The notes below the pieces were generated by a model. It was given only the letters and a program-made list of their open reading frames with translations, was not told the origin of the DNA and made no database searches. From positions 1,798,001 to 1,862,000 of the forward strand of contig NZ_CP099547.1 of NCBI RefSeq assembly GCF_023973165.1: a stretch of DNA of 64,000 nt, given 5' to 3'. Shown piece after piece: positions 19,529 to 52,146 of the stretch. Source of the DNA: Arcanobacterium pinnipediorum. Its GTDB lineage: Bacteria; Actinomycetota; Actinomycetes; Actinomycetales; Actinomycetaceae. Position numbers and translations under genes: made by a program. How positions within the stretch are numbered: position 1 is the stretch's first letter; each line of letters begins with the position of its first letter.

Positions 19529-19604
19529 TGTCGCGAAACCGGGGTATATGGGGTGATGTCCTCATATACGGGGACATCACCCCATATACCCCGGTTTTGG
19601 AACA
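19529..19604. repeat. 76-bp palindromic repeat, copy 1 of 5
   Basis: TGTCGCG, then a 26-nt arm starting AAACCGGGGTATATGGGG, a 10-nt centre (tcatatacgg), the exact complementary 26-nt arm ending CCCCGGTTT, and TGGAACA. The inner 62 bp (19536-19597) is palindromic except for its centre. In this copy the inner arms read GGGGTGATGTCC/GGACATCACCCC, a paired change from the GGGGCGATGTCC arm of the other copies. Confidence 0.9.
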
Positions 19605-19690
19605 CGTTCCAGTCTGAGTCAGGTTTAAAATGAGGTTTGAGAGCGCCGATTAGCTGCGAAAAGTGCCTAACGCCCGGTTTGGATAGATTA

Positions 19691-19754
19691 GCTAGTTGTT
19701 GAACTGGCTAATTGCTGGTCTGGCTAGTTGCTGAACTGGCTAGCAGTCAGACCA
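19691..19754. repeat. 16-bp tandem repeat, four units
   Basis: Four consecutive 16-bp units beginning gctagttgttgaactg, gctaattgctggtctg, gctagttgctgaactg and gctagcagtcagacca. It lies 14 bp beyond the stop codon of the kinase remnant, on its 3' side. Confidence 0.75.
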
Positions 19755-19767
19755 GCAACTAGATTAA

Positions 19768-20172
19768 CTAGCTGTACGATAACTGAGCAAGTTCTTCAGC
19801 CGTGGCGTACGAGGTCTGAGTACCTAGTTTCGTGACCGAATCTGCCGCATAACGATTTGCTTTGCGCAACGATTCAAGCACGTTTCCAGTTTTCACTAGG
19901 TAGTGACTAAAACAACCAATAAATGCATCTCCTGCACCTGTAGTATCACGAGCTTGAACAGTATGGGCACTAACGAGTTCATCTATTCCCTCAGCCATCC
20001 ACAAAACACCACGCGATCCAAGAGTAACAATCACATTCTTCACCCCTGCTTCTAACAATGCTGAGGTAGCATTACGAACATCGTCAATCGTTTCAACTGG
20101 CATTCCAGTGAGCAAAGACAACTCTGACTCATTAGGCATGAAGTATTGACAATCCTTGACCTCAAATAAAAG
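19768..20172 (-). pseudogene. PfkB/ribokinase-family sugar kinase, 3' remnant
   Basis: The reading frame encodes only the C-terminal half of a ribokinase-like kinase: 'FMPNESELSLL', then 'NVIVTLGSRGVLW' and the catalytic 'DTTGAGDAFIGCFSHYL' (anion hole GAGD), about 125 residues against the usual 300. Kinase-like residues (LFEVKDCQYF) continue upstream of the first ATG (20139), until an in-frame TAG just before 20172; upstream sequence shows no N-terminal kinase half. It is most simply a deletion remnant, and it lacks the sugar-binding N-terminus, so it should be inactive. Confidence 0.8.
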
Positions 20173-20281
20173 CCTTATCTAACAAGGAACAACAGGTGAG
20201 CGGTGGAAAGTTTGAGATACTGGCGCCCGACTATTGCCTACTGATTACCAGATTCGGCACTACGTAACGCGGTGTGGTTAA

Positions 20282-20325
20282 TAAGTAAAGCTCCAAGAAT
20301 GCGGGCATTCTTGGAGCTTTACTTA
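20282..20325. terminator. Perfect 21-bp stem terminator downstream of the GlsB-type gene
   Basis: Arms taagtaaagctccaagaatg... and its exact complement are separated by two G's at 20303-20304. It lies about 40 bp after the small membrane protein's stop on the minus strand, with A/T-rich ends that can act as the U-tract in either direction. Confidence 0.8.
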
Positions 20326-20363
20326 GACTGTATTAGTTACATTAGGCAACTATGACAGATAGA

Positions 20364-20618
20364 TTACTTCTTTGACTTAGTACCGGCGTAGATACCGATC
20401 GCAGCCATTGCGACGAGCGTGCAGACAACCCAGCGAATCCAGTCGATTCCGCCGGTGTTTGCCGGGTAACCGAAGATCGAGAGAGCCAAATTACCGAGGA
20501 GGACGCCAGCGACACCCAAAACTACAGTAGCGAGAACAGATAGCTCTGCACCTTTAAAGAACTTAGCAAGAAAACCGATAACTGCACCAAAAATAATTGT
20601 GCCAATAATATTGATCAT
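20364..20618 (-). CDS. GlsB/YeaQ/YmgE-family small membrane protein
   Basis: 84 residues from ATG 20618 (MINIIGTIIFGAVIGFLAKF), preceded by GGAAGGT. Three hydrophobic segments with many glycines ('GAVIGFLA', 'LGVAGVLLGNLAL') are diagnostic of the transglycosylase-associated/GlsB family of stress-induced membrane proteins. A strong terminator follows, so it is a monocistronic unit. The molecular function of the family is unknown. Confidence 0.88.
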   Translation of the reverse strand: MINIIGTIIFGAVIGFLAKFFKGAELSVLATVVLGVAGVLLGNLALSIFGYPANTGGIDWIRWVVCTLVAMAAIGIYAGTKSKK

Positions 20619-21018
20619 AATAAGACCTTCCACTTTAACTCGAAAAATCGAGGGATAGTTGAAATATTTACATTCTAACCCTATCAGGCTCAGCGCAAAT
20701 ACGTTCCGAATCAGCTTATGGTGGAAAAGCTAGACGAGGCACATGCCATTCATCGAATCCGTTAGATACAAGCGAGCGACCACCGTTGAGGTAGTCGCTC
20801 GCTTGCCATGAGAGCCCTTAGCGCCGAATCAAAGTCGCACAAATCCTTGACCAGCAGGCTTTCAAATATTCACTTTCCGCATTCTTTAGGAGTTACACAC
20901 TAGGAATTCCTTCAGATATACATATCTAAACATACTTAACTCGAAAACCAATGCGCACAAACTGGGAAAACCCTGAGAGTTTTAACGAACCTCCAACCAC
21001 AGAAAACCTCGCTAAAAA
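20619..21018. other. 400-bp intergenic region with one hairpin
   Basis: No gene is supported here. It should hold the promoter of the GlsB-type gene and the end of the ctpE transcript. A 12-bp stem (caagcgagcgac/gtcgctcgcttg, 20769-20805) is the only clear structure and may be the ctpE operon terminator, although it lies 214 bp past the stop and lacks a T-run. Confidence 0.45.
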
Positions 21019-23439
21019 TCAGCGCTGTGACAGTAACGGATCGTTGCGCCACAAGATCGTCGGCTCACCCTGATAGCGCTTAACAGTCCACCACAGCCCT
21101 TCGATAAGAACCGCAGCAACCAAGCCAATAATCGCCGCCTGCTGCATGATTGCACCGTTAGATGAATCCAACATGAATATCTTTTGGGTGAAATCCCATG
21201 TGAAGATCACGCCATAACCCAGCAACGGCAAAACAACAAGAATCGACTTCCACCATGATAGCGGGCGAGCAATACACACCAACACCCACGTCGACGGAAT
21301 AATCAAAGCCAGCAAAGCCGCCGTCGACTCTTCAACATAGACCTGACCGGAAACAAACTCGCCACCAGTAGCGGCCCAGAACGAAACAAACGCACTAATA
21401 CCAACCACAACTCCAGCAGGTACCGCAAACCACAAAACACGGCGTACAAACCCCGAACGAGCACGTTGATTATTAGGCGGCAAAGACAAAACAAATGCCG
21501 GAATACCAATCGTAAACCAACCAGTAATCGTGACATGGATCGGCTGGAATGGGAACGGAATAGCCGAAATAATCACCAAAATTGCCAACACTGCTGAATA
21601 GATCGTCTTCGTCAAAAACAAATTAGCGACCCGCTCGATGTTACCGATCACGCGGCGGCCCTCAGCCACCACATACGGCAACGTTGCAAACTTATCGTCC
21701 AATAACACAATCTTGGCAACCGAACGCGTCGCCGGAGCACCCGAGCCCATCGCAACACCGATATCGGCGTCTTTTAACGCCAGTACGTCATTGACACCAT
21801 CGCCAGTCATCGCAACTGTATGCCCGGCCTCTTGCAACGAGGCCACCATCGAACGCTTCTGATCTGGAGTGACCCGCCCGAAAACCAAATTATTCGCAAC
21901 CTGCGCATCGAAATTCTCCGACGTCAACGTGCGCGCATCAATCGCCTGACCAGAATCCACACCCAACTTGCGCGTCACCGCACCAACTGAGGCCGCGTTG
22001 TCACCAGAAATAACCTTCACAGTCACATTCTGTTCCGCAAAATATTCCAAGGTCTGGGCAGCATCGGGACGAACCTTCTGCTCAAAAACTACCAACGCAA
22101 CCGGTTCGACGTCGGTCAATTCAGTATCGTCATCGACCACCTGATCCGTATGGGCAAGCATAATCACACGCAAACCAGTCGAACCTAACTCCTGGGCACT
22201 CTTGGCATACGCGCTGCCTTCAGCAAGCACATCCGCAGCACCCAACAGCCAGCTACCGTGCTCGGCAAATGTGATACCTGACCACTTCGTCGCCGACGTA
22301 AACGCGTGCCGGCTGCGCACCTCCCACTTCTTAGTACCCGCATCCAAACCATGGGCCTCAATAATCGCTGCCATAGTAGAATTAGGATCTTGATCAGCAC
22401 CACCTAACTGTCCAAGAACCTCCTCTAACTGTGCAAAACTCCATGTGCCAGAAGCAGAACGAGAATCAGCCAACCCGCCCTCGTCGTCAAACAAACGAAT
22501 CGACTCAAAAATCATCCGATTCTCAGTCAACGTACCCGTCTTATCCGCACACACCACGTCCACTCGGGCAAGACCCTCGATAGCCGGCAATTCTTGAACT
22601 AAACACTTGCGCTTACCCAACCGGATAACACCCAACGCAAACGCCGTGGAGGTAATCAAAACCAAGCCCTCTGGAATCATCGGTACTAACGCACCCGAAA
22701 TCTTCAAAATGACTTGATCCCACTGGCTCGTCCCCTGCGAAACCTGCGAATAAATAATCAGGATACCCACCGGAATCAAAACCCACGTAATATACTTCAA
22801 AATCGTGTTGATACCAGATTGAAGCTGCGATTTAGCCAGCGTGAAACGTGATGCCTCCGCAGTCAGCCGCGCCGCATACGAATCCGCTCCAACTTTCGTT
22901 ACCCGATACGCGCCAGTACCCGAAACCACAAACGACCCAGACAAAATCTCATCATCTAGCTGCTTGCGCACCGCATCTGACTCACCAGTAAGCATCGACT
23001 CATCGATACTTAAACCGTCAGAGTCCACAACCTCACCATCAACAACAATCTGGTTGCCAGAACGCAATGCAATCACGTCGTCAAGAACCACATCTTCTTG
23101 GGCAACCTCGACGATCTTCCCATCGCGCCATACCCGCGGTTTTTCCTCGCCAATCAGCGACAGCGAATCAAGCGTGCGCTTCGCCCGCAGCTCCTGGACG
23201 ATTCCAATACCCGAATTAACGATAATCAGCAGACCAAACGCCGCATTAATAATTGAACCGGTCGTCATCACCATAACAAACAGCACCGACAACATGGCAT
23301 TAATCCGCGTAAACACATTCGAACGAATAATATCGCCCACCGTTTTCCCCGTACGCGGCGGCAACGTATTGACCCGGCCATCACGACGACGATCGGCCAC
23401 TTCTTCAGATGTTAAGCCCAACGATAGCTTCTGAGACAT
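21019..23439 (-). CDS. ctpE: P-type ATPase, CtpE-like (probable calcium transporter)
   Basis: About 806 residues. P-type motifs are all present: 'LTGESDAV' (actuator), 'CADKTGTLTENRM' (phosphorylation Asp) and 'MTGDGVNDVLALKDADIGVAMGSG' region (hinge), with ten membrane segments including a long C-terminal set. The N-terminal 'LTSEEVADRRRDGRVN' and 'NVFTRINAMLSVLF' closely resemble mycobacterial CtpE, reported to import Ca2+; ion specificity here is by similarity only. The ATG at 23439 is preferred, with GAAGAAG upstream; a GTG at 23445 overlaps the DUF1846 stop as GTGA. It is the second gene of a two-gene operon. Confidence 0.9.
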   Translation of the reverse strand: MSQKLSLGLTSEEVADRRRDGRVNTLPPRTGKTVGDIIRSNVFTRINAMLSVLFVMVMTTGSIINAAFGLLIIVNSGIGIVQELRAKRTLDSLSLIGEEKPRVWRDGKIVEVAQEDVVLDDVIALRSGNQIVVDGEVVDSDGLSIDESMLTGESDAVRKQLDDEILSGSFVVSGTGAYRVTKVGADSYAARLTAEASRFTLAKSQLQSGINTILKYITWVLIPVGILIIYSQVSQGTSQWDQVILKISGALVPMIPEGLVLITSTAFALGVIRLGKRKCLVQELPAIEGLARVDVVCADKTGTLTENRMIFESIRLFDDEGGLADSRSASGTWSFAQLEEVLGQLGGADQDPNSTMAAIIEAHGLDAGTKKWEVRSRHAFTSATKWSGITFAEHGSWLLGAADVLAEGSAYAKSAQELGSTGLRVIMLAHTDQVVDDDTELTDVEPVALVVFEQKVRPDAAQTLEYFAEQNVTVKVISGDNAASVGAVTRKLGVDSGQAIDARTLTSENFDAQVANNLVFGRVTPDQKRSMVASLQEAGHTVAMTGDGVNDVLALKDADIGVAMGSGAPATRSVAKIVLLDDKFATLPYVVAEGRRVIGNIERVANLFLTKTIYSAVLAILVIISAIPFPFQPIHVTITGWFTIGIPAFVLSLPPNNQRARSGFVRRVLWFAVPAGVVVGISAFVSFWAATGGEFVSGQVYVEESTAALLALIIPSTWVLVCIARPLSWWKSILVVLPLLGYGVIFTWDFTQKIFMLDSSNGAIMQQAAIIGLVAAVLIEGLWWTVKRYQGEPTILWRNDPLLSQR

Positions 23440-23441
23440 AA

Positions 23442-24935
23442 TCACTTCTTCTGGTAGAGAGACTTGCGCTGAAAGACCGGCTCGCTGGTCACGTACAATC
23501 CCAAATTACGGAAAATAGCCTCATCAACCGTACCCAGAATCGTCGTAACATGAACATCGCATCGAGCTAGATTCTTTAATTGTGCCATTGCATTGCGTGC
23601 ATCTTGACTAGTACCAGCCGACACACTTAACGCAATCAAAACTTCATCCGTGTGCAGCCGCGGATTACGCGACCCCAAATGCTCAACCTTGAGTTTTTGA
23701 ATCGGCTCGATCGACTGCGGCGACAACAACAAAGCCTCTCGGTCAATACCTGCCAACTGCTTTAACGCATTCAACAACATAGCTGCCGAACAACCCAACA
23801 GCTCCGAGGTTTTGCCCGTGACGATACTACCGTCGGGAAGCTCAATAGCAGAGGCTGGACTGCCTGTTTCCTCTGCCAACTTCAACGCCGGCGCAACCAC
23901 ATTGCGATCAGCCGTGGTCACACCCGCCTTGCGCATCACATGACGAACCCGATCCGAAAGAGTCGTATCCAAAGCTTCCTTGCGTTCTTCAACACGTGCC
24001 TGATAATAGCGGCGAATAATTTCCTGCCGGGAAGCCTCCCGCACCGCTTCGTCGTCGCTAATACAATAGCCAGCCATATTCACCCCCATATCGGTTGGGC
24101 TCTGGTATGGCGACTGGCCGGCAATCCGCTCCAACATTGTGCGCACCAACGGAAAGACGTCGATGTCTCGGTTATACGACGAAACTGACTCGCCATACGC
24201 TTCTAAATGGAAGGGATCAATAAGATTAGCGTCATCAAGATCCACAGTTGCAGCCTCGTAGGCTAAATTAACCGGATGCTCAAGAGCAACATTCCAAATC
24301 GGGAACGTTTCAAACTTCGCATAACCTGCCTTCGTGCCGCGCTTAGCCTCGTGATAAATCTGCGACAAGCATGTTGCCAGTTTGCCTGAGCCTGGGCCCG
24401 GAGCAGTCACAACAACAAGATCACGCGAAGTTTGAACAAAATCGTTCTTCCCTAGCCCTTCCTCAGAAACAATCACATCAACATTTGCCGGATATCCGGC
24501 AATCACGCGATGGCGAGCAACCTTAATTCCCATCCGCTCCAAGCGCTGCATAAACGTCACAGCCAACGTATTGGACTCATCGAATTGAGTCATCACAACA
24601 TTTTCCACGAGGAAACCACGCTCCCGGAAAACATCAATCAGCCGCAGCACATCTTCGTCGTAAGTAATGCCAACATCCGAACGCATTTTTTGGCGTTGCA
24701 AATCCTTAGCATTCAAACACACGATAATCTCGATCTCATCTGCAATCTTTTCCAGCATAACGATCTTGTTATCGGGAGTAAAACCAGGCAATACTCGCGA
24801 GGCATGGTTGTCGTCAAACAACTTGCCTCCCATCTCAAGATAGAGCTTCCCGCCTATCTTCGCCCGCCGCTCCAAAATATGCTTTGACTGCATCTCAATG
24901 TATTTTTCGCGGTCGAACCCTACTGTGAAGGCCAT
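23442..24935 (-). CDS. DUF1846 family protein
   Basis: 497 residues from ATG 24935 ([16 protein letters not shown]), with AAGGAG 7-8 nt upstream. The N-terminal '[18 protein letters not shown]' and '[13 protein letters not shown]' and the later '[20 protein letters not shown]' are the family's hallmark; the last is P-loop-like. A Mg/Mn-dependent or nucleotide-linked role has not been established for DUF1846. It is usually solitary in Firmicutes and Actinobacteria; here its stop overlaps the ctpE start, which suggests coordinated expression with cation transport. Confidence 0.9.
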
Positions 24936-24972
24936 GATTTTCTCCTTAATGTCCCCAACCATCTTCACTGGT

Positions 24973-24986
24973 GGAAACCGGTTTCC
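24973..24986. promoter_or_regulatory. 14-bp palindrome upstream of the DUF1846-ctpE operon
   Basis: GGAAACCGGTTTCC lies 38 bp upstream of the DUF1846 start codon. The central CCGG with flanking AAA/TTT resembles operators of LacI-family repressors. No LacI-type gene is in the window, so the regulator is unknown. Confidence 0.35.
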
Positions 24987-25074
24987 CCATAGTCAACAAT
25001 TCGTCGCGAACAGTGACTCATCGCAATAATTCCTCACGTTCCCAACTCCTCATTTCCACCATAATAAGGAAAAG

Positions 25075-25123
25075 CTCCCTTGCCGAAATCATCATTCAGA
25101 ACTGAGATGACTTCCAGGGAGCC
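25075..25123 (-). promoter_or_regulatory. Long hairpin in the leader of the DUF1846-ctpE operon
   Basis: On the minus strand gctccct ... agggagc encloses further complementary segments (gaagtcatc / gatgatttc and tcag / ctga) and is followed by TTTTCC, so it could fold as a multi-branched leader ending in a terminator-like stem about 140 nt before the start codon. No known riboswitch class is recognised. Confidence 0.35.
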
Positions 25124-25290
25124 CAACAATGGAGCTTACGCGCCATCGATTATCCTCGTCAAATGCTTAGCCTTTCTTCACACCAATTGAGTACCGGGAA
25201 TGGCTGGGGTTGCGGGCCTGGTCAGCTAGGTTTGCTGGGGTATCTCGCTGGGGTAGCCACGACATCTGCCAAAACTTAGTACTAGAACAG

Positions 25291-25380
25291 ACCGTAACTA
25301 TGCCAGACCGCGACTAAGCCAAACCGCAACTATGCCAAACCGCAACTATGCCAGACCGAAACTATGCCAAACCGAAACTT
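25291..25380. repeat. 16-bp tandem repeat running into the 3' end of def
   Basis: About five and a half 16-bp units of the form accgNaactatgccaR. The last units encode the final residues of peptide deformylase (SFGLA) and its stop codon, so the array has grown across the gene end. Confidence 0.85.
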
Positions 25381-26045
25381 GCACCTTTATCAGGCAATTC
25401 TGATTCTGCCGCTGCGGAGTCTTCCGGAACTCCAGCAAAATAACGAGTCATCTCGTCAAGGTTCGCGAGCGCGGCGTCGTCGAGATCAAAAAGCTCATCT
25501 TGCCCCGGTAACCAAGCAATTCCTGGCACATTCCACTTCTCGCGCTTCATCACCTTAGATACTTGGTGGGCAGACTTCCCAGTCAATCGATCAACATAAA
25601 TTCGGCCGTGCAAATGGTCATACTCGTGCTGCATAATACGCGCGAACCAACCATCAGCTTCCAGCTCATACCATTGACCTTCAACGTCTTGGGCACGCAA
25701 AACTGCCCGAGGTGAGCGACGAAGTCCATACTGGTAGCCAGGGAAAGATAAGCATCCTTCCTCGTCGGCTGGCGTTGGTTCGAGAGTATCGACCGGTTCA
25801 ATAAGTAGCGTCGGATTGATCGCCACACCTCGCTGCGGGCCCTTATGTTCTGGACCATCATACATCCACACGTACATCGCCAAATCGAGACCAATTTGTG
25901 GTGCAGCAAGACCTACACCAGGAGCGGCTTCACAGGTTTCAAACATATCTTCGGTGAGTTTTTTGAGCTTGTCATCGAAAACAGTAACTGGACGGCTGGT
26001 TTTGTGGAGAACCGGCGAACCATATACATGAATGGGGTAAAGCAT
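25362..26045 (-). CDS. def: Peptide deformylase
   Basis: 227 residues. Removes the N-formyl group from nascent proteins. The three metal-site motifs are intact: 'GVGLAAPQIG', 'EEGCLSFPG' (Cys ligand) and 'QHEYDHLHG' (HEXDH, two His ligands and the catalytic Glu). The protein is longer than E. coli Def (169 aa) because of a C-terminal extension ('LFDLDDAALANLDEMTRYFAG...'), common in actinobacteria. Its last six codons lie in the 16-bp tandem repeat. ATG at 26045. It stands alone, without the usual fmt neighbour. Confidence 0.95.
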   Translation of the reverse strand: MLYPIHVYGSPVLHKTSRPVTVFDDKLKKLTEDMFETCEAAPGVGLAAPQIGLDLAMYVWMYDGPEHKGPQRGVAINPTLLIEPVDTLEPTPADEEGCLSFPGYQYGLRRSPRAVLRAQDVEGQWYELEADGWFARIMQHEYDHLHGRIYVDRLTGKSAHQVSKVMKREKWNVPGIAWLPGQDELFDLDDAALANLDEMTRYFAGVPEDSAAAESELPDKGASFGLA

Positions 26046-26140
26046 ATACCTAGACTACGCGATTGGCGGACAGATATGCATTCGATCCACCCGACTTTCC
26101 CGATTATCTGCCCGTCTGCCGGGTTGGTGAACCTCACCCT

Positions 26141-26248
26141 GTCCGCCGGATTGGCTACCCTAGGCTTGTCCGCCGGATTGGCTACCCTAGGCTTGTCCGC
26201 CGGATTGGCTACCCTAGGCTTGTCCGCCGGATTGGCTACCCATCCATT
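26141..26248. repeat. 27-bp tandem repeat, four units
   Basis: The core gtccgccggattggctaccc recurs at 26141, 26168, 26195 and 26222, i.e. with an exact 27-bp period, and a diverged unit precedes it (about 26114). It lies just upstream of def. Because 27 is divisible by three, both strands give repetitive reading frames, which I do not regard as genes. Confidence 0.9.
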
Positions 26249-26330
26249 CACTCGCGAGATAGTTTTCTGCCACACAAACCAGTCAAATAACGTAAATCGC
26301 TCGTTTATCTGCTGTTCTATCAGCCCACAC

Positions 26331-26406
26331 TGTCACGAAACCGGGGTATACGGGGCGATGTCCCCGTATATGAGGCGATCGCCCCATATACCCCGGTTTT
26401 GGCACA
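26331..26406. repeat. 76-bp palindromic repeat, copy 2 of 5
   Basis: TGTCACG - arm starting AAACCGGGGTATACGGGG - centre - arm ending ATACCCCGGTTT - TGGCACA. This copy has an asymmetric variant centre (gatgtcc on the left against ggcgatcgcc on the right) shared only with copy 3. Confidence 0.9.
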
Positions 26407-26655
26407 AGCATCCACCGACTTCAGCCATAATCCTCCCACCACCAGTCACACAGAGCACACCAACCACACGACTACCTTCCGTCGGCAGGCACCAACCACA
26501 CCAGCCACTATTCTTAGAAAGCCTCAACCTGACCTTGTTGCTCGTCACCTAAAATACCTTCAACTTTATCCACAACCTGCTACCCTCAACATCGTTTTCC
26601 ATAGGTAAGGGATATTCGTCCACTTTTAATCAGCCGCTCAGCCATCCTTGAGAGT

Positions 26656-27513
26656 ATGGAAAAACGAGTTTTTCGTCGCCACCAACTACCTCATCCCTTT
26701 GTCACCAATAACCGCTTACTACAAAAGGCATGCGACGAAGGGATTATCATTCGGCTACCTCATCGCTGGTATGGGTCTCCATCAATTACTGAACTTGAAC
26801 GGAATGCCGCACAACATGGTTACCTGATAGGTTGTTGTTCTGCTGCGAAAGAATGGGGATTGTGGGTCCCTGAGACACGATACCCGCATCTGATCTGCCG
26901 CAGTAGAGATTCTAGTGCTCGCGCTACTCAGCTTACGATTCATCGGTCACTGACCAGTGATGGGCTGCTCGGTATCCACCCGTCACCCGCAAAATCGCCC
27001 CATATTTATAGCACTCTTGTTGAATCTCTGGAACACATCGTGCGCTACCACCATGAAGAGACAGGTTTAATTGTTCTGGAATCTGCATTGAATCAACGGA
27101 AAATAGATATGCCCACGGCAGATAAGATCATTGCTGGTGCACAGCGCCACAAGCAACAAGTTCTTCGTAGACGAATACGTGATGCACAATCAGGCAGTGA
27201 AACCCGCGTGAGAAACTACCTTCACTCATTACGCGTCCCGGTTTCGGCACAGGTCTATGTTCCAACTGTTGGGCGTATCGACTTGCTCGTCGGAAGATCT
27301 TTATCTATCGAGTGTGATAGCACAGCGTTTCATAGCAAAGGGCTCAACGTCAACGAAGATCGATACCGGGATGCACAACAAACACTTCTCGGATATAAAC
27401 ATATACGGCTAAGTTATCAACAAATTTGGGGTGACTGGGAAAATACTAAGTCCTATATTCTTACCGTTTTAAGGACTCGGGAACATCTACTATTTCCGCG
27501 CCCGTTACTGTGA
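26656..27513 (+). CDS. AbiEi/DUF559-like protein with PD-(D/E)XK endonuclease-type C-terminus
   Basis: 285 residues. The N-terminal half resembles the winged-helix/antitoxin-like part of actinobacterial 'type IV toxin-antitoxin AbiEi / DUF559' proteins ('LPHRWYGSP' basic turn). The C-terminal part has E182 ('SETRVRNYL'), 'VGRIDLLVG' (D209) and 'SIECDS' (E219, D221), consistent with a Vsr/DUF559-like PD-(D/E)XK nuclease fold with all acidic residues kept. ATG at 26656. No toxin gene adjoins it. Role unknown; related genes are common accessory genes in Actinobacteria. It is bracketed by two copies of the 76-bp palindrome. Confidence 0.7.
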   Translation: MEKRVFRRHQLPHPFVTNNRLLQKACDEGIIIRLPHRWYGSPSITELERNAAQHGYLIGCCSAAKEWGLWVPETRYPHLICRSRDSSARATQLTIHRSLTSDGLLGIHPSPAKSPHIYSTLVESLEHIVRYHHEETGLIVLESALNQRKIDMPTADKIIAGAQRHKQQVLRRRIRDAQSGSETRVRNYLHSLRVPVSAQVYVPTVGRIDLLVGRSLSIECDSTAFHSKGLNVNEDRYRDAQQTLLGYKHIRLSYQQIWGDWENTKSYILTVLRTREHLLFPRPLL

Positions 27514-27887
27514 TAAATCGTGAGGTTTGGGTAGCTACAGATAGCTCAGCGCCAGCACTTCGCAAATAGGGTCTATGGATACGCTAGACATGCACTGATA
27601 AGTAGAAGATAGGTCATGAGCAAATAGGATCGGAAATCTTATGAGAGCTATCCTTTTAAAGTATTCGCCATGAGTAGCTAGGTTGGATATAACTAGGGAG
27701 GACATCTCGAGGGTGTCAAGGGCAGATGAACCATCGGTAAAGCCGTACAAAACACTGTGGAATTCCCCTGAATATCTAGGGTGGCACATCTCAATATATG
27801 CAGCGCGGGTCAGGGAAGCTGGAAAAATGAACCTGACTAACGCCAACACCTCTGACATCTGCACACCGCCTGCTGATACCTAAGATC
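27514..27887. other. Intergenic region without a supported gene
   Basis: Open frames of 60-110 codons exist on both strands (for example 27535-27864 on the minus strand), but none has a ribosome-binding site or a recognisable sequence, and their composition is unlike the neighbouring genes. Confidence 0.4.
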
Positions 27888-27963
27888 GGTGACAAAACCG
27901 GGGTATATGGGGCGATGTCCCCGTATATGAGGCGATCGCCCCATATACCCCGGTTTTGAAACA
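27888..27963. repeat. 76-bp palindromic repeat, copy 3 of 5
   Basis: GGTGACA - arm starting AAACCGGGGTATATGGGG - centre - arm ending ATACCCCGGTTT - TGAAACA. Its centre is identical to copy 2 (ccccgtatatgaggcgatcg). The left terminal trinucleotide has drifted from TGT to GGT. Confidence 0.9.
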
Positions 27964-27989
27964 TATATACCTGTTATTAGACTAAATCT

Positions 27990-29390: not shown

Positions 29391-29499
29391 TTTTCGCGAT
29401 ACTCATCCCTTTCTTATCTCCTTCGATACCGTGGTCCGGTGCAAAAACTAACGTCTCCGCTCGCTAGAATGATTAATAGGAAACGACACCAAACCATCC

Positions 29500-29612
29500 A
29501 CCAACCCAACCTCCCACCACCCACCAACCAACCAACCACCAACCAAACCAACCAACCACCCACCTCCCACCACCCACCAACCACCAACCACCAACCACCC
29601 ACCAAACCAGCT
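29500..29612. repeat. C/A-only simple-sequence tract
   Basis: About 110 bp consisting almost only of ccaacc/ccaccaacc units on the plus strand, immediately upstream of the acyltransferase start. The pyrimidine-poor bias of one strand makes slippage and length polymorphism likely. It could modulate expression of the gene 12 bp downstream. Confidence 0.8.
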
Positions 29613-29623
29613 AATGTGAAACC

Positions 29624-31296: not shown

Positions 31297-31297
31297 C

Positions 31298-36424: not shown

Positions 36425-36477
36425 TGCATAGCAATAGGGCGCAGAGTTTTCGCTAACTCCGCGCCCTATTGCTATGC
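36425..36477 (+). terminator. Terminator of the YbjN-Hsp90-TPR operon
   Basis: A 17-bp perfect stem (gcatagcaatagggcgc and complement) with a further inner pairing gagtt/aactc. It ends the operon; strength comes from the stem because only TTG follows. Confidence 0.85.
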
Positions 36478-36618: not shown

Positions 36619-36694
36619 TGTTTCAAAACCGGGGTATATGGGGCGATGTCCTCGTATATGGGGACATCGCCCCATATACCCCGGTTTCGCGACA
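36619..36694. repeat. 76-bp palindromic repeat, copy 4 of 5
   Basis: TGTTTCA - arm starting AAACCGGGGTATATGGGG - centre tcgtatatgg - arm ending ATACCCCGGTTT - CGCGACA. The outer heptamers show it is in the opposite orientation to copies 1 and 2 (its right end reads TGTCGCG on the other strand). Confidence 0.9.
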
Positions 36695-38667: not shown

Positions 38668-39666
38668 ATGTACTCTGGTCTTATTCCCACATTTGGTCCA
38701 CGGGTGCCTGATTATTTGGGTCCGAATTGGGTTGCTCGCACCGCATTTTTGAACGACGTCGACGCCGGTACCCCGCCGGGCCGTCCAGATGTGGCGGTGT
38801 TGGTCAGCGAGGTCGACGCCGATACACGAGTTGCACACTCCGGCGTTGCCGCCTTGTGGTTGCCTGGGTTCTTGGATTCGTTTTTCCATGTGGAGCAAGC
38901 TCAAGCGTGGGCTGAAGCTGGCATCCCCCTGTATGGTCTGGATTTTCGCCGTTCGGGACGCTCCTTACGGGTCCCTTCGCGCCGTGATGATTTACGAGAT
39001 TTGCTCATCCGCGAAGAAGAGATCCATGCGGCACTGACTCATATCCGTGCCCAAGGCGCGGAGAAGATCGTACTCATTGGTCATTCAACTGGCGGATTAC
39101 AAGCGGTGTTATTTGCCGATCGTCACCCTGGCGCAGTTGATGCAGTGATTCTTAATTCGCCGTGGCTAGATCACAATGGGCCAACATGGCAACGCACAGC
39201 GGCAACATCGGTCTTTGAAAAGATTGCTCGAGTCGCTCCGCTCACTCCGATCGCACGGTTAAAACCAGCTTATGCTCGGAGTTTGCACGTGGATTATGGA
39301 GGTGAGTTCTATTTTAATCCGCAACATAAACCACTCACTTCTGCCACCGTCTTTGCTGGTTTCTTCACTGCGGCACGGCGCGGGCACGCGATGGTTGCTC
39401 GCGGTCTGGATATCAAGGAACCAGTGCTTCTTGCTCATTCAGATAAGTCTGGCAGCCGTACTCATCCAAGTGAGTACGAGCTTGCGCATACTGATGTGGT
39501 GCTCGACGTCGAAGACATGAAGCGCTTAGCTCCAGCGTTGGGTTCTCACGTGGAGACGGTAGAGATCATCGGCGGTCGCCACGATCTCGCATTGTCTGAG
39601 ACGCCAGCACGTAACCGCTACACGCGCGAAACGATCCGGTGGGCGTTACGCCAGGTGGGCCGGTGA
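38668..39666 (+). CDS. Alpha/beta hydrolase (serine aminopeptidase S33/lysophospholipase-like)
   Basis: 332 residues from ATG 38668 (MYSGLIPTFGPRVPDYLG), immediately after upp. Motifs: 'LPGFLDSFFHVEQAQAW' (oxyanion loop), 'YGLDFRRSGRS', the nucleophile elbow 'GHSTGG', and a late 'GGRHDLALSE' with the catalytic His. It resembles actinobacterial monoacylglycerol-lipase/lysophospholipase-like proteins. Coupling to upp is positional and gives no metabolic clue. The stop codon overlaps the first unit of a 21-bp tandem repeat. Confidence 0.85.
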   Translation: MYSGLIPTFGPRVPDYLGPNWVARTAFLNDVDAGTPPGRPDVAVLVSEVDADTRVAHSGVAALWLPGFLDSFFHVEQAQAWAEAGIPLYGLDFRRSGRSLRVPSRRDDLRDLLIREEEIHAALTHIRAQGAEKIVLIGHSTGGLQAVLFADRHPGAVDAVILNSPWLDHNGPTWQRTAATSVFEKIARVAPLTPIARLKPAYARSLHVDYGGEFYFNPQHKPLTSATVFAGFFTAARRGHAMVARGLDIKEPVLLAHSDKSGSRTHPSEYELAHTDVVLDVEDMKRLAPALGSHVETVEIIGGRHDLALSETPARNRYTRETIRWALRQVGR

Positions 39667-39790
39667 TCTGCCACCCGGTCAAAATGATCTGCCACCCGGT
39701 CAAAATGATCTGCCACCCGGCCAAAACGATCTGCCACCCGGCCAAAACGATCTGCCACCCGGTCAAAATGATCTGCCACCCGGCCAAAAT
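39665..39790. repeat. 21-bp tandem repeat starting at a stop codon, six units
   Basis: Six contiguous 21-bp units beginning gatctgccacccggYcaaaa at 39665, 39686, 39707, 39728, 39749 and 39770. The first unit overlaps the hydrolase TGA. Variation is confined to Y/T positions (ggtc/ggcc, aaat/aaac). On the minus strand it would give a heptad-like peptide (VADHFDR), but no start or ribosome-binding site supports a gene. Confidence 0.92.
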
Positions 39791-39821
39791 GACTGGTGAA
39801 CAAGATCAACCTCGATAACTG

Positions 39822-39844: not shown

Positions 39845-39928
39845 ACTTTCCACCACGCGTTTACTGCTAAAATACCTATCATGTGCCGCTTTTAGCGGCG
39901 TAACCTGATGAACAATAAGGAGATGCCG

Positions 39929-40786: not shown

Positions 40787-40979
40787 TCAATTTTGTTGCG
40801 GGGGTAGAGATCGTGAGCTTACTCCTGGAAAGTTGGATGTAATAATTAGCTTCCTTCTTTCTTGGACCAGTCCACGTCTCTGCCCTCCTTCATGTCATCA
40901 ATGTGGGCTTGTCCACGACGCAAACATATTCCATCACTAACGAGAACTTTACTGAAAATTTGGAGTATTGTTACATACT

Positions 40980-45170: not shown

Positions 45171-45272
45171 AGTCTTGATTCTACTAGAAGTTGTTCTACT
45201 CTTTGACACTGCTTCGTCTCATTGCGCGCTGAGCATTAGGAAGGCGGGCAAAAACGCATTAAACTTGTGGCT

Positions 45273-46553: not shown

Positions 46554-46557
46554 AAAC

Positions 46558-47493
46558 GTGACTATACATAACTCTCAACAGTCCGCAGATGATTTGCCGG
46601 ACTCGTTGCCATACTTTACTGACGTCCTGCGCGCTTCGTCGCTCCCCAAAGCAGGACCAGACTTGTTGCTTGCTATTGATCTAGATGGCACAACCTTGCA
46701 TCATGACGCAACGGTCTCTGAGCGGATGCGTCAGGCGGTTCATGCTCATATTGCTGCCGGAACAACTCTTATTTTCGCTACCGGACGCGGTATTACCGGA
46801 ACTCAGGTAGCACTGGGGGATATTGGGATTGAGCGCGGTGTAGTAGTGGCCTGTAATGGCGCTATCACTGCCTCAATCGGAGGTGTAATTCCTGATTCTG
46901 AAACTACCCCGCTACCTGATTTTTTGGGTGAGAACGGTCCGGCATTCCGATTGGTTGCTTCGCATACGTTTGATCCTAGTCGCGAGATTGAGATTTTATC
47001 TGCGGGGCTACCTAGCGATGTGTGGTTTGCTTTGGAAACCCTTGACGAACCTACGCGCGTAACCTATCCGTTCCCTCCCGATGAATTGTCTGGTCCGAGC
47101 AGGCTGGTACCGTTATCGGAATTATCTTCAACAAAAGCTACCCGGCTAACTGTTCGCGCTGCGAAAATGACGGCACGCGAACTCCTTGATGCGGTAGCGG
47201 AGTTGGGTTTGCATGGCGTGGAGTATGCGGTGGGTTGGTCTGCCTGGATGGATATTACTCCCGAGGGTGTTTCTAAAGCCTCAGCGCTCGAAGAGTTGCG
47301 CCTGCGGTTTGGCATTGACCCATACAACACTGTTGCGGTGGGCGATTCCGGGAACGATGTGGCTATGTTGGAGTGGGCAACGGTCGGTGTTGCGATGGGC
47401 AATGCTCCCCAGTATGTTCGCGAGTATGCCGATGCGTTAACTGACCATGTTGACGACGACGGGTGTGCCGCTGTTTTAGAGGCTTTGCTATAA
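46558..47493 (+). CDS. HAD-superfamily (Cof-type) phosphatase
   Basis: 311 residues from GTG 46558, 4 bp after serS; the open frame extends back into serS but no better start is seen. 'LLLAIDLDGTTLHHDATVS' (DXDGT nucleophile), 'FATGRG' and 'VAVGDSGNDVAMLEWA' are the HAD motifs I, II and IV of the Cof/HAD-IIB type, with the C2 cap between. Acts on phosphorylated sugars or cofactors in characterised members. Pairing with serS is common in actinobacteria. Confidence 0.9.
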   Translation: MTIHNSQQSADDLPDSLPYFTDVLRASSLPKAGPDLLLAIDLDGTTLHHDATVSERMRQAVHAHIAAGTTLIFATGRGITGTQVALGDIGIERGVVVACNGAITASIGGVIPDSETTPLPDFLGENGPAFRLVASHTFDPSREIEILSAGLPSDVWFALETLDEPTRVTYPFPPDELSGPSRLVPLSELSSTKATRLTVRAAKMTARELLDAVAELGLHGVEYAVGWSAWMDITPEGVSKASALEELRLRFGIDPYNTVAVGDSGNDVAMLEWATVGVAMGNAPQYVREYADALTDHVDDDGCAAVLEALL

Positions 47494-47579
47494 CTATCCC
47501 GGCGTGGCACGTTGGTTAGGCTCAGTGGCACGTTGAGCTTGGCTCTCAGCTGCACGTTTGGGAGGGCTCGGTTGCACTT
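47494..47579. repeat. Imperfect repeat between convergent genes
   Basis: Variants of gtggcacgttgg / gtggcacgttga / ctgcacgtttgg recur in this 86-bp stretch right after the HAD phosphatase stop codon. Confidence 0.5.
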
Positions 47580-49790
47580 CTAGCTGCGCTTAGCTGCCTG
47601 TCCGGCAATCATGGCAGCCAATGCCGGCAAAGCAATATAGAGCCCTTCTTTAATCATAATTGCGCCCGAATCATTGATCGGAACAGCTATGAAAATCCCG
47701 GCAGCAATACCGGCTGCAACCGGCAAGAAACCATATCCCGCAGTGATCTCCCGCAAGGACGCCAGATGCACTCCGCTGCGAGAATTAAGATACGACGTAG
47801 CATAAACAGCTGCAATAGCAAAAATAATCACTACAGCTATCAAGATAAGCAAATCCGGACGCCCCACGAACGAACGAACAACGTCACGGATTTTCCCGCC
47901 AACGATAGCCCAGCTATCTGTGCTACCAAACCTAGACCAGAATCTACCGATATGTGACTGTCCGCCGCGCGCAACATCAACGAATCCAACCGCAGACATC
48001 ACAGCAACGGTGAGAAGAATCCAGGCAAGCACATGCCACCAACGCAATTTCTTGCCCGCGACAAGCAGCGCCGCTATACCAAATCCAGCAATAATTCCTG
48101 GAGGCCCACCAAAATCAGCACCCCAACCTGGCATGGCATCAACAGCGAGCATCAATAGCCCAACAGCAGAAATAATATAAGCGCTTACCTGCCCCACAGT
48201 CATCGAACCCCAAGGCAACGCCGCAATATCGTGTGTTGCTAGTTCGCCGTCGGAAACACTGCGTTGGCTGCTAGCCCGGCGTCGAAGATACGCAATAATC
48301 AGCAACGCGCCAACAAGTCCGCCCACGACAAGTATGAGATAGGTGCGATTAGAAATTCCGTAGTAGCGCCGTGAGGTTAAGATAAGTGAGCCCATAAACC
48401 CGTTGCGTTGGTGGGGTGAACCGGCAACGATATCCAGACTCAATATCACTGTTGCCACCAGCGCAATGAAACCGGCACGGTGTGGAGTTAGATGAGCGCA
48501 TGCCACCATGCCGCCAGCAATCACACTGGTTGCCCCGATCGCCCAGGTTTGCATCATGCCCGGGCCACCCGGAAGATTCCACCAGGGCAAGAAATTTAAG
48601 ATCATCGCAGCCGGCACCCACGCAAACGCCCACAGATTAAATTTTTCTAACCCAATCCAGATCCAGCGTGGTCCGCCCCAGCTAAGACCTTCTCGTTGTG
48701 GTTTGATCAAGAATACGGCCGTCAGGGCACTTGCGCCAAGCAAAACCACAATATTAAAGACCTGATACCATTTTGCCGACGATGACGCCGCAACACTAGA
48801 ATGGCGTGCAATATCGAGCACTGGCTGTAGTGCGCTGGTCAAAGAATCTTCTGGCTGAACATGGAGTCCGGTGAGTTTTCCGGTGAGCAGATTGCGCACG
48901 TCGGCGGCGGTTATGAAACCTGTTGCCCGCGTCAAATCTGATTCGAGAACACTCGGGCCGCCGTGCCCATTGATCGCCATATTGGTTGCGAAGAAGTGCA
49001 GGTGAGCCCGCCGCCATTGATCTGCCATAGAGGCAATAATCACGGTACGCGGATGGTCAGCGTTGTTGTTTGCCGTCAATATGTTGATCAGCTTTTGTTC
49101 GATGAGTTTGGTTTGTGCAGGCACATCGAGATAGCGGGGCGCTCCACGAACACTTCCGATATCGGCGACGACGTCGCCGGGTGACGTTTGTAAAATTCGG
49201 GTTAATTCTCGCTGTGCTTTGGCGGCATTTGCTGGGTCTCCACCATCTGGAAGCGCATACCACTGCTGGACGCTACCATCGTTGGATGCCACTGGAATCG
49301 TCGCGTTTGTTCCGATGGCAACGACGTCGTGCGAAAAAAGCAGATCTTGCGGCCACTGGGTTTTCTCGATATGTTGGGTGAAATTTCGAATATGTACCGG
49401 TTGAGGTTGCGTTTTGGGTAGGCTTGCCGGATCTTCAATAATTGTGGCGGCGTGACAATCGTCGCCATATTTCTCGATGTATGTTTCTGGAAGCCGATCT
49501 GAGACATCTCGTGACGTACGTAACTGCATCCATCCTTCTGACGGACATGTGAGCGGAGACACGGATCGTGGACTCAACGCCGCAAGTGAATAGTTTTCGA
49601 GCAAGGTTGCTAACTGGGGATCGGCGAGATTAAGATCGCTCGGGCTAACCCCTGACATACCAATGAAAAGTATGGAATCTCGGGAAGAAGTCGGTGCCGC
49701 AGGCGATAAAGCCAGAGCAGAACTAGCCGCTCCGGCCATACCTAAAACACCGAGCAAAGCCAACATTATGGAAATAATTCGTCGCCGCAC
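47580..49790 (-). CDS. Large envelope protein: AlkP-like ectodomain plus polytopic membrane domain (paralogue B)
   Basis: 736 residues from GTG 49790 (MRRRIISIMLALLG), chosen because AAAGGG lies 5 nt upstream and a signal anchor follows; ATG 49820 and GTG 49853 are in-frame alternatives. It is a diverged copy of the protein at 41731-44007: 'ILFIGMSGVSPSDL' matches 'VFIGFSGVVWEDI', 'CPSEGWMQL' matches 'CPNAGWLTI', and the membrane domain repeats 'RRYYGISN', 'GADFGGPPGII' and 'INDSGAIM'. The two lie on the same strand on either side of the serS-HAD unit. Function unknown; likely a polymer- or lipid-linked envelope enzyme or transporter. Confidence 0.78.
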   Translation of the reverse strand: MRRRIISIMLALLGVLGMAGAASSALALSPAAPTSSRDSILFIGMSGVSPSDLNLADPQLATLLENYSLAALSPRSVSPLTCPSEGWMQLRTSRDVSDRLPETYIEKYGDDCHAATIIEDPASLPKTQPQPVHIRNFTQHIEKTQWPQDLLFSHDVVAIGTNATIPVASNDGSVQQWYALPDGGDPANAAKAQRELTRILQTSPGDVVADIGSVRGAPRYLDVPAQTKLIEQKLINILTANNNADHPRTVIIASMADQWRRAHLHFFATNMAINGHGGPSVLESDLTRATGFITAADVRNLLTGKLTGLHVQPEDSLTSALQPVLDIARHSSVAASSSAKWYQVFNIVVLLGASALTAVFLIKPQREGLSWGGPRWIWIGLEKFNLWAFAWVPAAMILNFLPWWNLPGGPGMMQTWAIGATSVIAGGMVACAHLTPHRAGFIALVATVILSLDIVAGSPHQRNGFMGSLILTSRRYYGISNRTYLILVVGGLVGALLIIAYLRRRASSQRSVSDGELATHDIAALPWGSMTVGQVSAYIISAVGLLMLAVDAMPGWGADFGGPPGIIAGFGIAALLVAGKKLRWWHVLAWILLTVAVMSAVGFVDVARGGQSHIGRFWSRFGSTDSWAIVGGKIRDVVRSFVGRPDLLILIAVVIIFAIAAVYATSYLNSRSGVHLASLREITAGYGFLPVAAGIAAGIFIAVPINDSGAIMIKEGLYIALPALAAMIAGQAAKRS

Positions 49791-49917
49791 ATCTACCCTT
49801 TCACGTCGTTCTCTTTCCATAGTAAAACAAATATCTGCGTTACCAGCTTTCACTCGGGTCGCAATTCCCTTACAATAATGGAGGTGTTAAGATTCCTTCG
49901 TGGTTTCTTGAGACTAA

Positions 49918-50005
49918 GGAGAGTTGTCAGAGCGGCCGAATGAGCTGGTCTTGAAAACCAGTATGCAGTAACCCTGCATCAAGGGTTCGAATCCCTTACT
50001 CTCCG
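49918..50005 (+). tRNA. tRNA-Ser (anticodon TGA)
   Basis: 88-nt class II tRNA: acceptor GGAGAGT/ACTCTCC, anticodon loop CTTGAAA (anticodon TGA), long variable arm tatgcagtaaccctgcatc, T-arm AAGGGTTCGAATCCCTT, discriminator G. CCA is not encoded. Confidence 0.96.
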
Positions 50006-50030
50006 CTGTTTGCCTCGCGCAAACATTCAA

Positions 50031-50122
50031 GGAGACGTGGCTGAGTGGCCGAAAGCGCTCCCCTGCTAAGGGAGTAGTCGCCTAAAAGCGGCTCGCGGGT
50101 TCAAATCCCGCCGTCTCCGCCA
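50031..50122 (+). tRNA. tRNA-Ser (anticodon GCT)
   Basis: Class II tRNA: acceptor GGAGACG/CGTCTCC, anticodon loop CTGCTAA (anticodon GCT), long variable arm, T-arm GCGGGTTCAAATCCCGC, discriminator G and an encoded CCA (50120-50122). It follows tRNA-Ser(TGA) by 25 bp, so they share a transcript. Confidence 0.96.
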
Positions 50123-50127
50123 TATCG

Positions 50128-50171
50128 GATATCCCCCGAGACCAGCGAACTGGTCTCGGGGGATATCTTTT
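50128..50171 (+). terminator. Terminator of the tRNA-Ser pair
   Basis: An 18-bp perfect stem (gatatcccccgagaccag and complement) with loop cgaa and a TTTT tail. Confidence 0.95.
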
Positions 50172-50198
50172 CTGATGAGCCGGTGCGCGGGCAGGTTA

Positions 50199-50232
50199 GG
50201 GACAACTAGCCCACTCCAATCCCTCCTAAACG
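50199..50232. repeat. Left part of a 65-bp tandem repeat unit interrupted by the IS
   Basis: gggacaactagcccactc... up to the cctaaacg target site matches the units at 51903 and 51967. Removing the IS and one copy of the target duplication restores a continuous array. Confidence 0.8.
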
Positions 50233-51864
50233 GGCTCTTCGCGTTTTAGCGGGGTGTGGAGATGCAGAAGTGGTGAAGGTAGTTCATGCTTAGAGTGTGA
50301 ATCAAAAACTTGAACGTACCTTCACCGCTTATGATCCTACCGTAATTCTTGCTCGGCTTGTGAGTTTGAAAGATATTCGCGTCTTGGCGTATCACCGTCA
50401 TGGCTCTCAACAGGAAATCGAAATTGAACAAGTCCTTAAGAGACCAACATGCCCACGTTGTGAAAGTCTTGCACGCGTTAAAGAAAGGCCAAGAGTACGG
50501 TATATAGATTTACCTGTCTATGGTCGGTCTATGAGCTTGTTATGGCGTAAGCACCGCTGGTATTGTCCAAACGTTGCATGTGATGTTGGTTCATGGACAA
50601 GTCAAGATAAACGTATTGCTGCTCAACGTTGCCAGATGACTACCAGGGCAGCTAAATGGGCGACCCAGCAAGTAGGCATGGGACGAACAATTAGCGAAGT
50701 CGCAGCTGAACTTGGTTGTTCTTGGCACACAGTCAATGATGCAGTAACTATGTATGGTCAAGTGTTACTACAAGCAGACCGTAAGCGTTTAAACAAGACT
50801 CACGCAATCGGGCTTGATGAAACAAGTTTCGTTCGCATACAAGGACACCGCACAAGTTATGTCACTACGGTATGTGACGTCGAGCATCATCAAATCATTG
50901 ATATTATCCCAAGCTGTAACTACATAGACGTAGCCCGCTATTTAAAAGACCAGCCCAACGCTTGGAAAGCACGAATCCGCTATGCCACTTTAGACATGAG
51001 CCCAACATACCGTGCTGTGTATAACGTGGTATTACCCCAGGCAACTCAAATAGCTGATCATTTCCATGTGATTACGTTAGCCAATCGTGTGTTAGATACT
51101 GTACGTAGACGCGTACAAAATCAGACCTTGGGACACCGTGGGCATAAAAAAGATCCTTTATACAAGATTCGGCGTTTACTGACATATGGTAGTGAAAAAC
51201 TACTGCCAGCAATGGTCCAGCGTCTAGAAAGCATGCTTGTGTTAGGAGATCCTCACGCTGAAGTAGCGATTGCGTATCGGATAAAAGAACGCTTACGAGA
51301 GTTTTATCAGCAAACAGATCTTGGTGTTGCGACCACCATGCTTGCAGAATTGATACAAACATGCCTGGATGTGGCTATGCCCCCAGAAATTCAGCAGCTA
51401 GGACGCACGCTACAACGATGGCAGCTTCAAATCTTGGCGTATCATCAAACGCATCTTTCTAATTCCATCACCGAGGCGTTAAACAATCTCATCAAACGTA
51501 TTAAACGTATCGGATTTGGGTTCACGAATTTCAACAACTATCGCATTCGTGCATTACTGTATGCCGGTAAACCTAACTGGAGACTGCTGCATAATATCTT
51601 CGTGTAACCTGTTTACCAGTGAGAAGATCACAAGGCATTTTCTATCATCGAGTGTTGCTCGCACTAACACCAACGGGTTAACAAAGACAATGTATGTTGC
51701 TTACTTTTATATAGTTATTCCGGGCCACTAAAAATCTCATCACCACCACATTAACGCCAACGAAAACACAGCTGCTAACTTTAAAATCACTACACCAGCA
51801 CCTGATACTAGGCCAGTAAACCCACCGAGTAACAACGTTTCACCCCGCTAAAACGCGAAGAGCC
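50233..51864 (+). mobile_element. ISL3-family insertion sequence, intact
   Basis: 1632-bp element with perfect 24-bp terminal inverted repeats (GGCTCTTCGCGTTTTAGCGG + GGTG at 50233-50256; exact complement at 51841-51864) and a perfect 8-bp target duplication CCTAAACG (50225-50232 and 51865-51872). It carries one full-length transposase. The identical ends and duplication point to recent insertion. Family assignment rests on the transposase, the end length and the 8-bp duplication, all typical of ISL3. Confidence 0.93.
50297..51607 (+). CDS. tnp: ISL3-family transposase
   Basis: 436 residues, GTG start at 50297. An N-terminal zinc ribbon ('CPRCESLARVK' with 'CPNVACDVG') and an HTH ('TISEVAAELGCSWHTVNDAV') precede the DDE domain with 'GLDETSFVR' (first D), 'TLDMSPTYRAVY' (second D) and 'SITEALNNLIKRIKR' (E). 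No frameshift; it should be active. About 230 bp of non-coding sequence separates its stop from the right end, which is long for the family but shows no second gene. Confidence 0.95.
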   Translation: MNQKLERTFTAYDPTVILARLVSLKDIRVLAYHRHGSQQEIEIEQVLKRPTCPRCESLARVKERPRVRYIDLPVYGRSMSLLWRKHRWYCPNVACDVGSWTSQDKRIAAQRCQMTTRAAKWATQQVGMGRTISEVAAELGCSWHTVNDAVTMYGQVLLQADRKRLNKTHAIGLDETSFVRIQGHRTSYVTTVCDVEHHQIIDIIPSCNYIDVARYLKDQPNAWKARIRYATLDMSPTYRAVYNVVLPQATQIADHFHVITLANRVLDTVRRRVQNQTLGHRGHKKDPLYKIRRLLTYGSEKLLPAMVQRLESMLVLGDPHAEVAIAYRIKERLREFYQQTDLGVATTMLAELIQTCLDVAMPPEIQQLGRTLQRWQLQILAYHQTHLSNSITEALNNLIKRIKRIGFGFTNFNNYRIRALLYAGKPNWRLLHNIFV

Positions 51865-52070
51865 CCTAAACGACCCACTTACCTATAAACAGCAGCATCG
51901 CAGGGACAACTAGCCCACTCCGATCCCTCCTAAATGGCCCACTTACCTATAAACAGCAGTATCGCAGGGACAGCCAGCCCACTCCGATCCCCTACTCAAC
52001 CACTTCCAAGCAATATGAGCAGAATTTAGTCCTAATTGTCCGCTTATCGGGTTGGGGTGAGCGGTGCGCC
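51865..52070. repeat. 65-bp tandem repeat, right part
   Basis: Two further near-identical units, starting at about 51903 and 51967, each with cagggacaR...agcccactccgatccc; the second ends in a diverged copy. The target duplication of the IS occupies its left border. Confidence 0.8.
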
Positions 52071-52146
52071 TGTTCCGAAACCGGGGTATATGGGGCGATG
52101 TCCTCATATACGAGGACATCGCCCCATATACCCCGGTTTTGACACA
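52071..52146. repeat. 76-bp palindromic repeat, copy 5 of 5
   Basis: TGTTCCG - arm starting AAACCGGGGTATATGGGG - centre tcatatacga - arm ending ATACCCCGGTTT - TGACACA. The inner arms (26 nt each) are exactly complementary. Confidence 0.92.

Follow-up and report, generated by a model that had tools for sequence, protein, structure and literature searches.

Dispersed palindromes in Arcanobacterium and related Actinobacteria as proposed partner sites of a bracketed AbiEi-EDxHD endonuclease gene

A stretch of 64,000 nucleotides from the genome of Arcanobacterium pinnipediorum (contig NZ_CP099547.1, positions 1,798,001 to 1,862,000; here termed the window, with positions counted from its first letter) contains five copies of a 76-bp palindrome, two of which bracket an endonuclease gene that was overlooked in a preliminary description of this DNA. 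We consider it rather probable that these palindromes are the DNA partner sites of the endonuclease, in a relationship resembling the one between repetitive extragenic palindromes (REPs) and REP-associated tyrosine transposases (RAYTs). The palindrome families together with the bracketed gene point to a so far unnamed mobile system. Its constituents in the window are:

19529..19604, no strand assigned: solo palindrome of 76 bp, copy 1
26331..26406, no strand assigned: palindrome upstream of the endonuclease gene
26656..27513, plus strand: endonuclease gene of 285 aa, with an AbiEi-like N-terminal half and an EDxHD/Vsr-like nuclease domain
27888..27963, no strand assigned: palindrome downstream of the endonuclease gene
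36619..36694, no strand assigned: solo palindrome, copy 4
52071..52146, no strand assigned: solo palindrome, copy 5

The coordinates of the five palindromes, already listed in the preliminary description, were verified in the sequence, and the element is not confined to these sites. In a search of the whole assembly (1,952,277 bases in one contig), whose matches were read in place, we identified 33 copies including a strongly diverged one, a number that is to be taken as lower bound, with the same 76-mer residing at no fewer than 33 places of the genome. The arm pattern has 29 exact matches in this genome, whereas the same pattern reversed has none, and its recurrence is thus far beyond chance. 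The two copies bracketing the endonuclease gene align with 93% identity over 75 nt as direct repeat and with 83% as inverted repeat.

The association between gene and palindromes extends to other lineages. Homologues of the endonuclease were detected in 85 of 213 genomes of the family Actinomycetaceae (with E-values up to 1e-15; genomes are cited by running numbers such as G001 where required). The best 30 loci of the family genomes (one per genome) were combined with 57 loci from named genomes, and removal of duplicates on both strands reduced these 87 loci to 74, of which 73 were testable. The same palindrome was found on both sides of the gene in 38 of the 73 unique loci with a loose rule, which was written after inspection of the first 30 loci, and in 25 with a stricter rule, whose thresholds were also set after the data and whose inverted-repeat limit of 69.5% just admits G001. 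Palindromic pairs were present in 2 (loose) and 1 (stricter) of 335 non-overlapping control intervals located beside the same genes and thus drawn from the loci under study. In a separate control set, positives amounted to 1 of 84 same-locus intervals and to 4 of 197 intervals of the window genome, with one of latter four spanning the real gene and the other three lying between neighbouring copies of the family. Positive loci were found in Arcanobacterium, Trueperella, Mobiluncus, Tessaracoccus, Arachnia, metagenome-assembled genomes of the Propionibacteriaceae and Brachybacterium. No pair was found at 35 of the 73 loci, some of which are not distant (such as L187 with 43% identity), and among further paralogue loci the same rule detected a pair in 4 of 16. 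That a single gene family is paired with palindromes in several genera, and that such pairs are rare in the 335 control intervals, is difficult to reconcile with the palindromes being ordinary repeated bidirectional terminators and the endonuclease gene a passenger. Although such terminators would account for the stem with its A-rich foot and T-rich end and for the position behind genes, we regard them as very improbable, also in light of the constant length of 76 bp, the outer boxes that in two families are conserved outside the stem, and the shortness of the T-runs.

The pairing is also manifested in the sequence type of the solitary palindromes (solos). In a comparison where most solos had been found by models or patterns of these families and listed palindromes of other types were left out, the best match of each solo was the pair of its own genome in 31 of 31 cases in the window genome, 16 of 16 in A. 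haemolyticum (G003) and 11 of 11 in Trueperella bernardiae, which covers all known solos of these three genomes. The solos compared in G006 (8 of 8, out of 14 known) and G001 (5 of 5, out of 6) match a type common to G001, G004, G005 and G006, and in G004, which carries two endonuclease genes each with its own palindrome type, two of the seven tested solos (out of 17) match the second type. Some palindromes of a type other than that of the pair in their own genome do exist, which weighs against the proposed partnership. The common type, ATAGYGCAAA...TTTGCRCTAT, brackets the syntenic endonuclease gene in all four genomes and has 8 exact matches in G001, 16 in G004, 9 in G005 and 16 in G006, including one each in G004 and G005 with a different centre that may not belong, whereas the remaining five Arcanobacterium genomes contain none. 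At the thresholds used, G002 contains neither the gene nor palindromes; in G008 no palindromes were detected, and there are two weaker matches to the gene, of which one contains an in-frame stop. In Trueperella, G195 carries its palindrome at 14 places, two of which bracket the gene, and has one short match in addition, and T. bernardiae contains at least 13 copies. Tessaracoccus sp. MC1679 has four solos beyond the bracketing two and Tessaracoccus lapidicaptus the bracketing two only; any match to the Tessaracoccus arm type was found in three of the seven genomes scanned, and in one, G219, the scanned gene is bracketed by another type.

The arms of the palindromes thus vary between species. 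A covariance model of the 33 copies led to a second 76-bp family with 18 copies in A. haemolyticum, where columns 20/57 are unpaired in 11 and columns 21/56 in 9 of the 18. The ends of the element read TGTNNCR on both sides in the window genome and TKACRN, often in the form of CGTCA, in A. haemolyticum. A joint model extended the family to 11 of the 213 genomes and 2 of 36 genera, the second of which is by inference Trueperella, in a scan with strict filters and 22 scored candidates per genome that missed weak members. These families have a TATA-like centre and an inner box (GATAG- or GATC-like) in common, but not their arms. The presence in relatives, on which the preliminary description had made its claim of novelty depend, therefore concerns a family with other arms, and the exact arm pattern of the window is found in only two of the 213 genomes, the window genome and G001. 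In G001, the 2.9 kb surrounding the two copies of this type are 97.5 and 98.8% identical to the window genome, within longer blocks of 92-97%, whereas homologous DNA of the two genomes is typically 64-77% identical (in a 12-kb test stretch, with a tRNA-bearing piece at 92%), and the copies have thus probably been acquired in a recent exchange.

Besides these relationships, we have noted that about half of the A. haemolyticum copies (L075-L092) contain a short arm block that pairs via G-T or is unpaired, and that 6 of the 16 loci read in this species lie clearly between convergent genes, a number that increases to 9 of 16 if short unsupported open reading frames (ORFs) are ignored. A presumed resemblance of its arms to Tn3 terminal repeats was dropped. 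In G000, a region of about 10 kb that separates truB-like from ribF-like genes (C1:697882-710441; L068, L069) is bracketed by two palindromes and contains, as read from its ORFs, lipoprotein paralogues, a lactococcin-like ORF and ABC genes. Its identity to A. buesumense of mostly 92-97%, and of 97.5-98.8% around the palindromes, suggests that it is probably a recently exchanged segment.

In A. haemolyticum, palindrome, gene and palindrome constitute an inserted unit, which is flanked by the genes of a hydrolase and an endonuclease III. Alignments run without interruption across the junction of these genes in the genomes of the window, G001, G004, G005 and G006, with A. haemolyticum being longer by about 1.2 kb. 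The comparison covered these five relatives, with G002, G007 and G008 left out, and does not amount to five independent tests since G004 and G005 are very close and share the middle of the gene. In the window the corresponding place is:

12583..12742, no strand assigned: uninterrupted junction matching the place of the A. haemolyticum unit, not part of the element

Three orthologous solo sites retain a palindrome whose sequence type differs between species. At position 47437 of the window genome, located between genes that read as glycerophosphodiesterase-like and sugar-dehydratase-like, the window genome carries its own type and G001 and G006 carry theirs, in register. At 110713, beside a lipoprotein-like gene, the situation is the same. 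At 709007, before ribF, G006 and G001 contain different palindromes within flanks of about 95% identity, that of G001 being of the type found in the window genome. The pair around the syntenic endonuclease gene also differs between species. Most copies of the window genome are without counterpart among the loci of relatives compared, which comprised a limited set from which the weaker candidates L293, L297 and L295 were left out.

The inserted unit and the many copies without counterpart, together with an architecture reminiscent of a REPtron, where a gene is placed between two palindromes and accompanied by family-specific dispersed copies, would also be compatible with REP/RAYT-like transposition. 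In such a process, the endonuclease would serve as transposase, excising the palindrome as hairpin or duplex, inserting it elsewhere and mobilising solos in trans, and the likeness of copies would reflect recent copying instead of conversion. We consider this process unlikely, since differing types at orthologous sites require more than insertion and in 24 of 38 pairs the bracketing copies match better in direct than in inverted orientation, in contrast to RAYT genes, which are placed between two inverted REPs (PMC2817692). In addition, the genus contains no PF01797 transposase: the family matched none of the nine Arcanobacterium genomes (including that of the window) versus 5 of 14 control genomes, and RAYT/IS200 was rejected as candidate. 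The suggestion that the element is REP-like and moved by a RAYT thus persists to the extent that an enzyme gene is bracketed by the same palindrome, but this enzyme is not a RAYT. As a second option, the preliminary description had proposed sites of a chromosome-organising protein. Although the sites are dispersed, intergenic and palindromic, this option is disfavoured and appears barely credible, with arms that are species-specific and rewritten between species, copies that bracket an inserted gene and a copy number that amounts to 33 in one species, whereas no copies were detected in the congeners G002 and G008.

The endonuclease consists of an AbiEi-like half (residues about 2-177) and an EDxHD/Vsr-like nuclease domain (about 177-277) in its predicted fold. 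Its N-terminal half displays a predicted AbiEi-type fold resembling 6y8q, and its nuclease domain has the predicted catalytic fold and the E-D-H-D residues of EDxHD homing endonucleases. The residues E182, D209, E219, H226 and D235 are invariant across 29 sequences and, by analogy, would be the catalytic residues. A sequence search of the PDB returned weak hits only. Among six neighbouring ORFs at three loci, which encode a deformylase, a hydrolase, an endonuclease III, a phosphate transporter, a SpoU methylase and one protein without match, none is a DUF1814 nucleotidyltransferase toxin gene. Homologues with one in-frame stop each (G008:C1:1693591, G004:C1:284085, G006:C1:228796, G190:C64:9380 and G191:C1:119137) are decaying copies.

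The AbiEi-like half raises the possibility that the palindromes are operators, by which the protein would repress its own gene and control a regulon via the solos, with the nuclease domain serving in defence. AbiEi antitoxins autoregulate via inverted repeats (PMC7319586), and a palindrome is found upstream of the gene in 38 of 38 positive loci, as dictated by the definition of the test. The second palindrome downstream of the gene, the change of arms at a faster rate than a regulon should allow and the organization in A. haemolyticum, where solos are usually faced by a stop codon on at least one side in mechanical ORFs, leaving few in a promoter-like position, render operator sites quite unlikely.

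We thus return to the proposed partnership, in which the endonuclease, a presumed dimer, would bind the two half-sites of one palindrome and cut near its TATA-like centre. AbiEi binds two 23-bp inverted repeats that are 3 bp apart (PMC7319586), and dimerisation on a site spanning nearly 60 bp is described for an EDxHD enzyme (PMC3943268). Two AbiEi-like halves in a dimer would suit two inverted half-sites. The break might then be repaired from another palindrome copy or from a copy bearing the gene. Repair from copies would keep palindromes alike, with the centre being copied in either orientation, and repair from a gene-bearing copy would spread the gene between sites. If the enzyme-site pair drifted to a new sequence, copies would be overwritten genome-wide. 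We propose that the bracketed gene is a mobile unit and that solos are either palindrome-only arrivals, which would include arrival at palindrome-free sites, or scars of past occupation. More tentatively, and with slightly more doubt than trust, we suggest a selfish cut-and-convert class in Actinobacteria, in which enzyme and site would co-evolve and the set of palindromes would be rewritten in place, as a gene-drive-like, transposase-free counterpart of REP/RAYT systems.

The detailed organization of the palindrome in the window genome deviates in part from its initial account. The TGT...ACA ends are generally found, whereas the copy at 27888 begins with GGTGACA, and the NN positions of the outer heptamer TGTNNCR are mostly unpaired (in 25 and 27 of 33 copies). 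The 10-nt centre between the arms does not apply to the copies at 26331 and 27888, where mismatches by the centre leave the uninterrupted pairing 18 nt apart. In 13 copies with common flanks, this centre is found five times in one orientation, seven times in the opposite and once in an ambiguous form. With respect to the claim that pairing itself is maintained, a shuffle test of the 33 copies, whose result can be inflated by the relatedness of copies, revealed covariation of the arms at columns 17/60, 20/57 and 21/56 with a score reached in 0 of 500 shuffles, but the count of pairs in which both partners have changed was equalled or exceeded in 176 of 500; maintenance is thus supported but not proven. 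The copies were all described as intergenic. The one at 26331 overlaps a mechanical ORF of 235 aa (25845-26552), part of which lies antisense to the gene of a peptide deformylase (25365-26045, minus strand), and this site is likewise treated as intergenic here.

No consistent target-site duplication was found outside the element in the 33 and 18 copies of the two families, where 13 offsets were compared for exact repeats 2-9 nt long. At gathering scores, Rfam identified four tRNAs only between 17001 and 54000 of the window and left the palindrome unmatched. Plasmids, phages and viral contigs contained no match, and a first pattern scan of a genome-contig collection also gave none, in collections from which the own record may be left out. 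With respect to a reading as miniature inverted-repeat element of an insertion sequence, whose terminal repeats would also be carried by a transposase gene, no half-sites were found among the whole-genome matches listed. Twelve of the 33 places, each adjoining a palindrome (as in L013 at 4079-4230), have up to 152 nt of their right flank in common; a longer repeat as mobile unit was considered for these places and set aside. A switch of GC-skew at the palindrome, apparent in part of the copies, was dropped. Transposase genes, which we take to be ISL3-like and IS1249-like, lie near many palindromes (at 50297-51607 and in L012-L015, L020-L023, L025, L029 and L031), at distances of about 0.2-2 kb.

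The window also contains other repeats. At 60476-60531, we found a perfect 56-bp palindrome with ends TGTGGATAA ... TTATCCACA, which are presumably DnaA-box-like, and with arms unrelated to the 76-bp family. Further long perfect or near-perfect palindromes with unrelated arms are located at 14317-14360, 20282-20325, 36426-36477, 50128-50167 and 52998-53040. Short arrays with repeat units of 16, 27 and 21 nt, as well as a duplication of 64 nt, are found at 25281-25392, 26114-26248, 39644-39811 and 51865-51991.

Dispersed palindromes without known mover, such as the CGTC REPs, are a standing puzzle, and in the described case the proposed partner gene differs from the known transposases, in a partnership recurring in Actinomycetaceae, Propionibacteriaceae and Brachybacterium. 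The relationship is directly testable with a predicted nuclease and a predicted site of 60-76 bp, variants of which are known for several species. If true, it would assign a role to some genes that are currently annotated just as 'endonuclease domain-containing' or 'AbiEi family antitoxin domain-containing'. The literature searched, mostly outside subscription journals, contained no description of an endonuclease-palindrome pairing, and as far as we have seen this pairing is new, whereas its parts are known. The AbiEi antitoxins of type IV toxin-antitoxin systems share the likeness of the N-terminal half to 6y8q and the binding of inverted repeats, whereas here this half is fused to a nuclease, without DUF1814 toxin among the neighbours described above. 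With I-Bth0305I and Vsr, the protein shares the nuclease fold of the EDxHD homing endonuclease, as predicted here, and a Vsr-type nuclease domain fused to other domains is described for MTES_1575 (PMC3710099); in the present case, a free-standing bacterial gene with an AbiEi-like half is accompanied by bracketing palindromes and solos. CGTC-tagged REPs are likewise dispersed palindromes without known transposase and recall the ends of the A. haemolyticum family, which often read CGTCA, but their stems are 8-9 bp long (PMC3733652) and no partner gene is known. The closest correspondence concerns the REP/RAYT systems (REPtrons and TIRtrons), where an intergenic dispersed palindrome equally brackets an enzyme gene and enzyme and palindrome family are paired, with species containing several REP families having repeat-specific REPtrons (PMC3733652). 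Conversely, the enzyme of REP/RAYT is a Y1 HUH transposase and the one described here an AbiEi-EDxHD endonuclease, REPs measure 20-40 bp compared to palindromes of about 54-80 bp with two long half-sites, the stems of about 26-33 bp carry no GTAG (or CGTC) foot tag in the two families examined, and the bracketing copies are predominantly direct rather than inverted repeats (24 of 38 loci).

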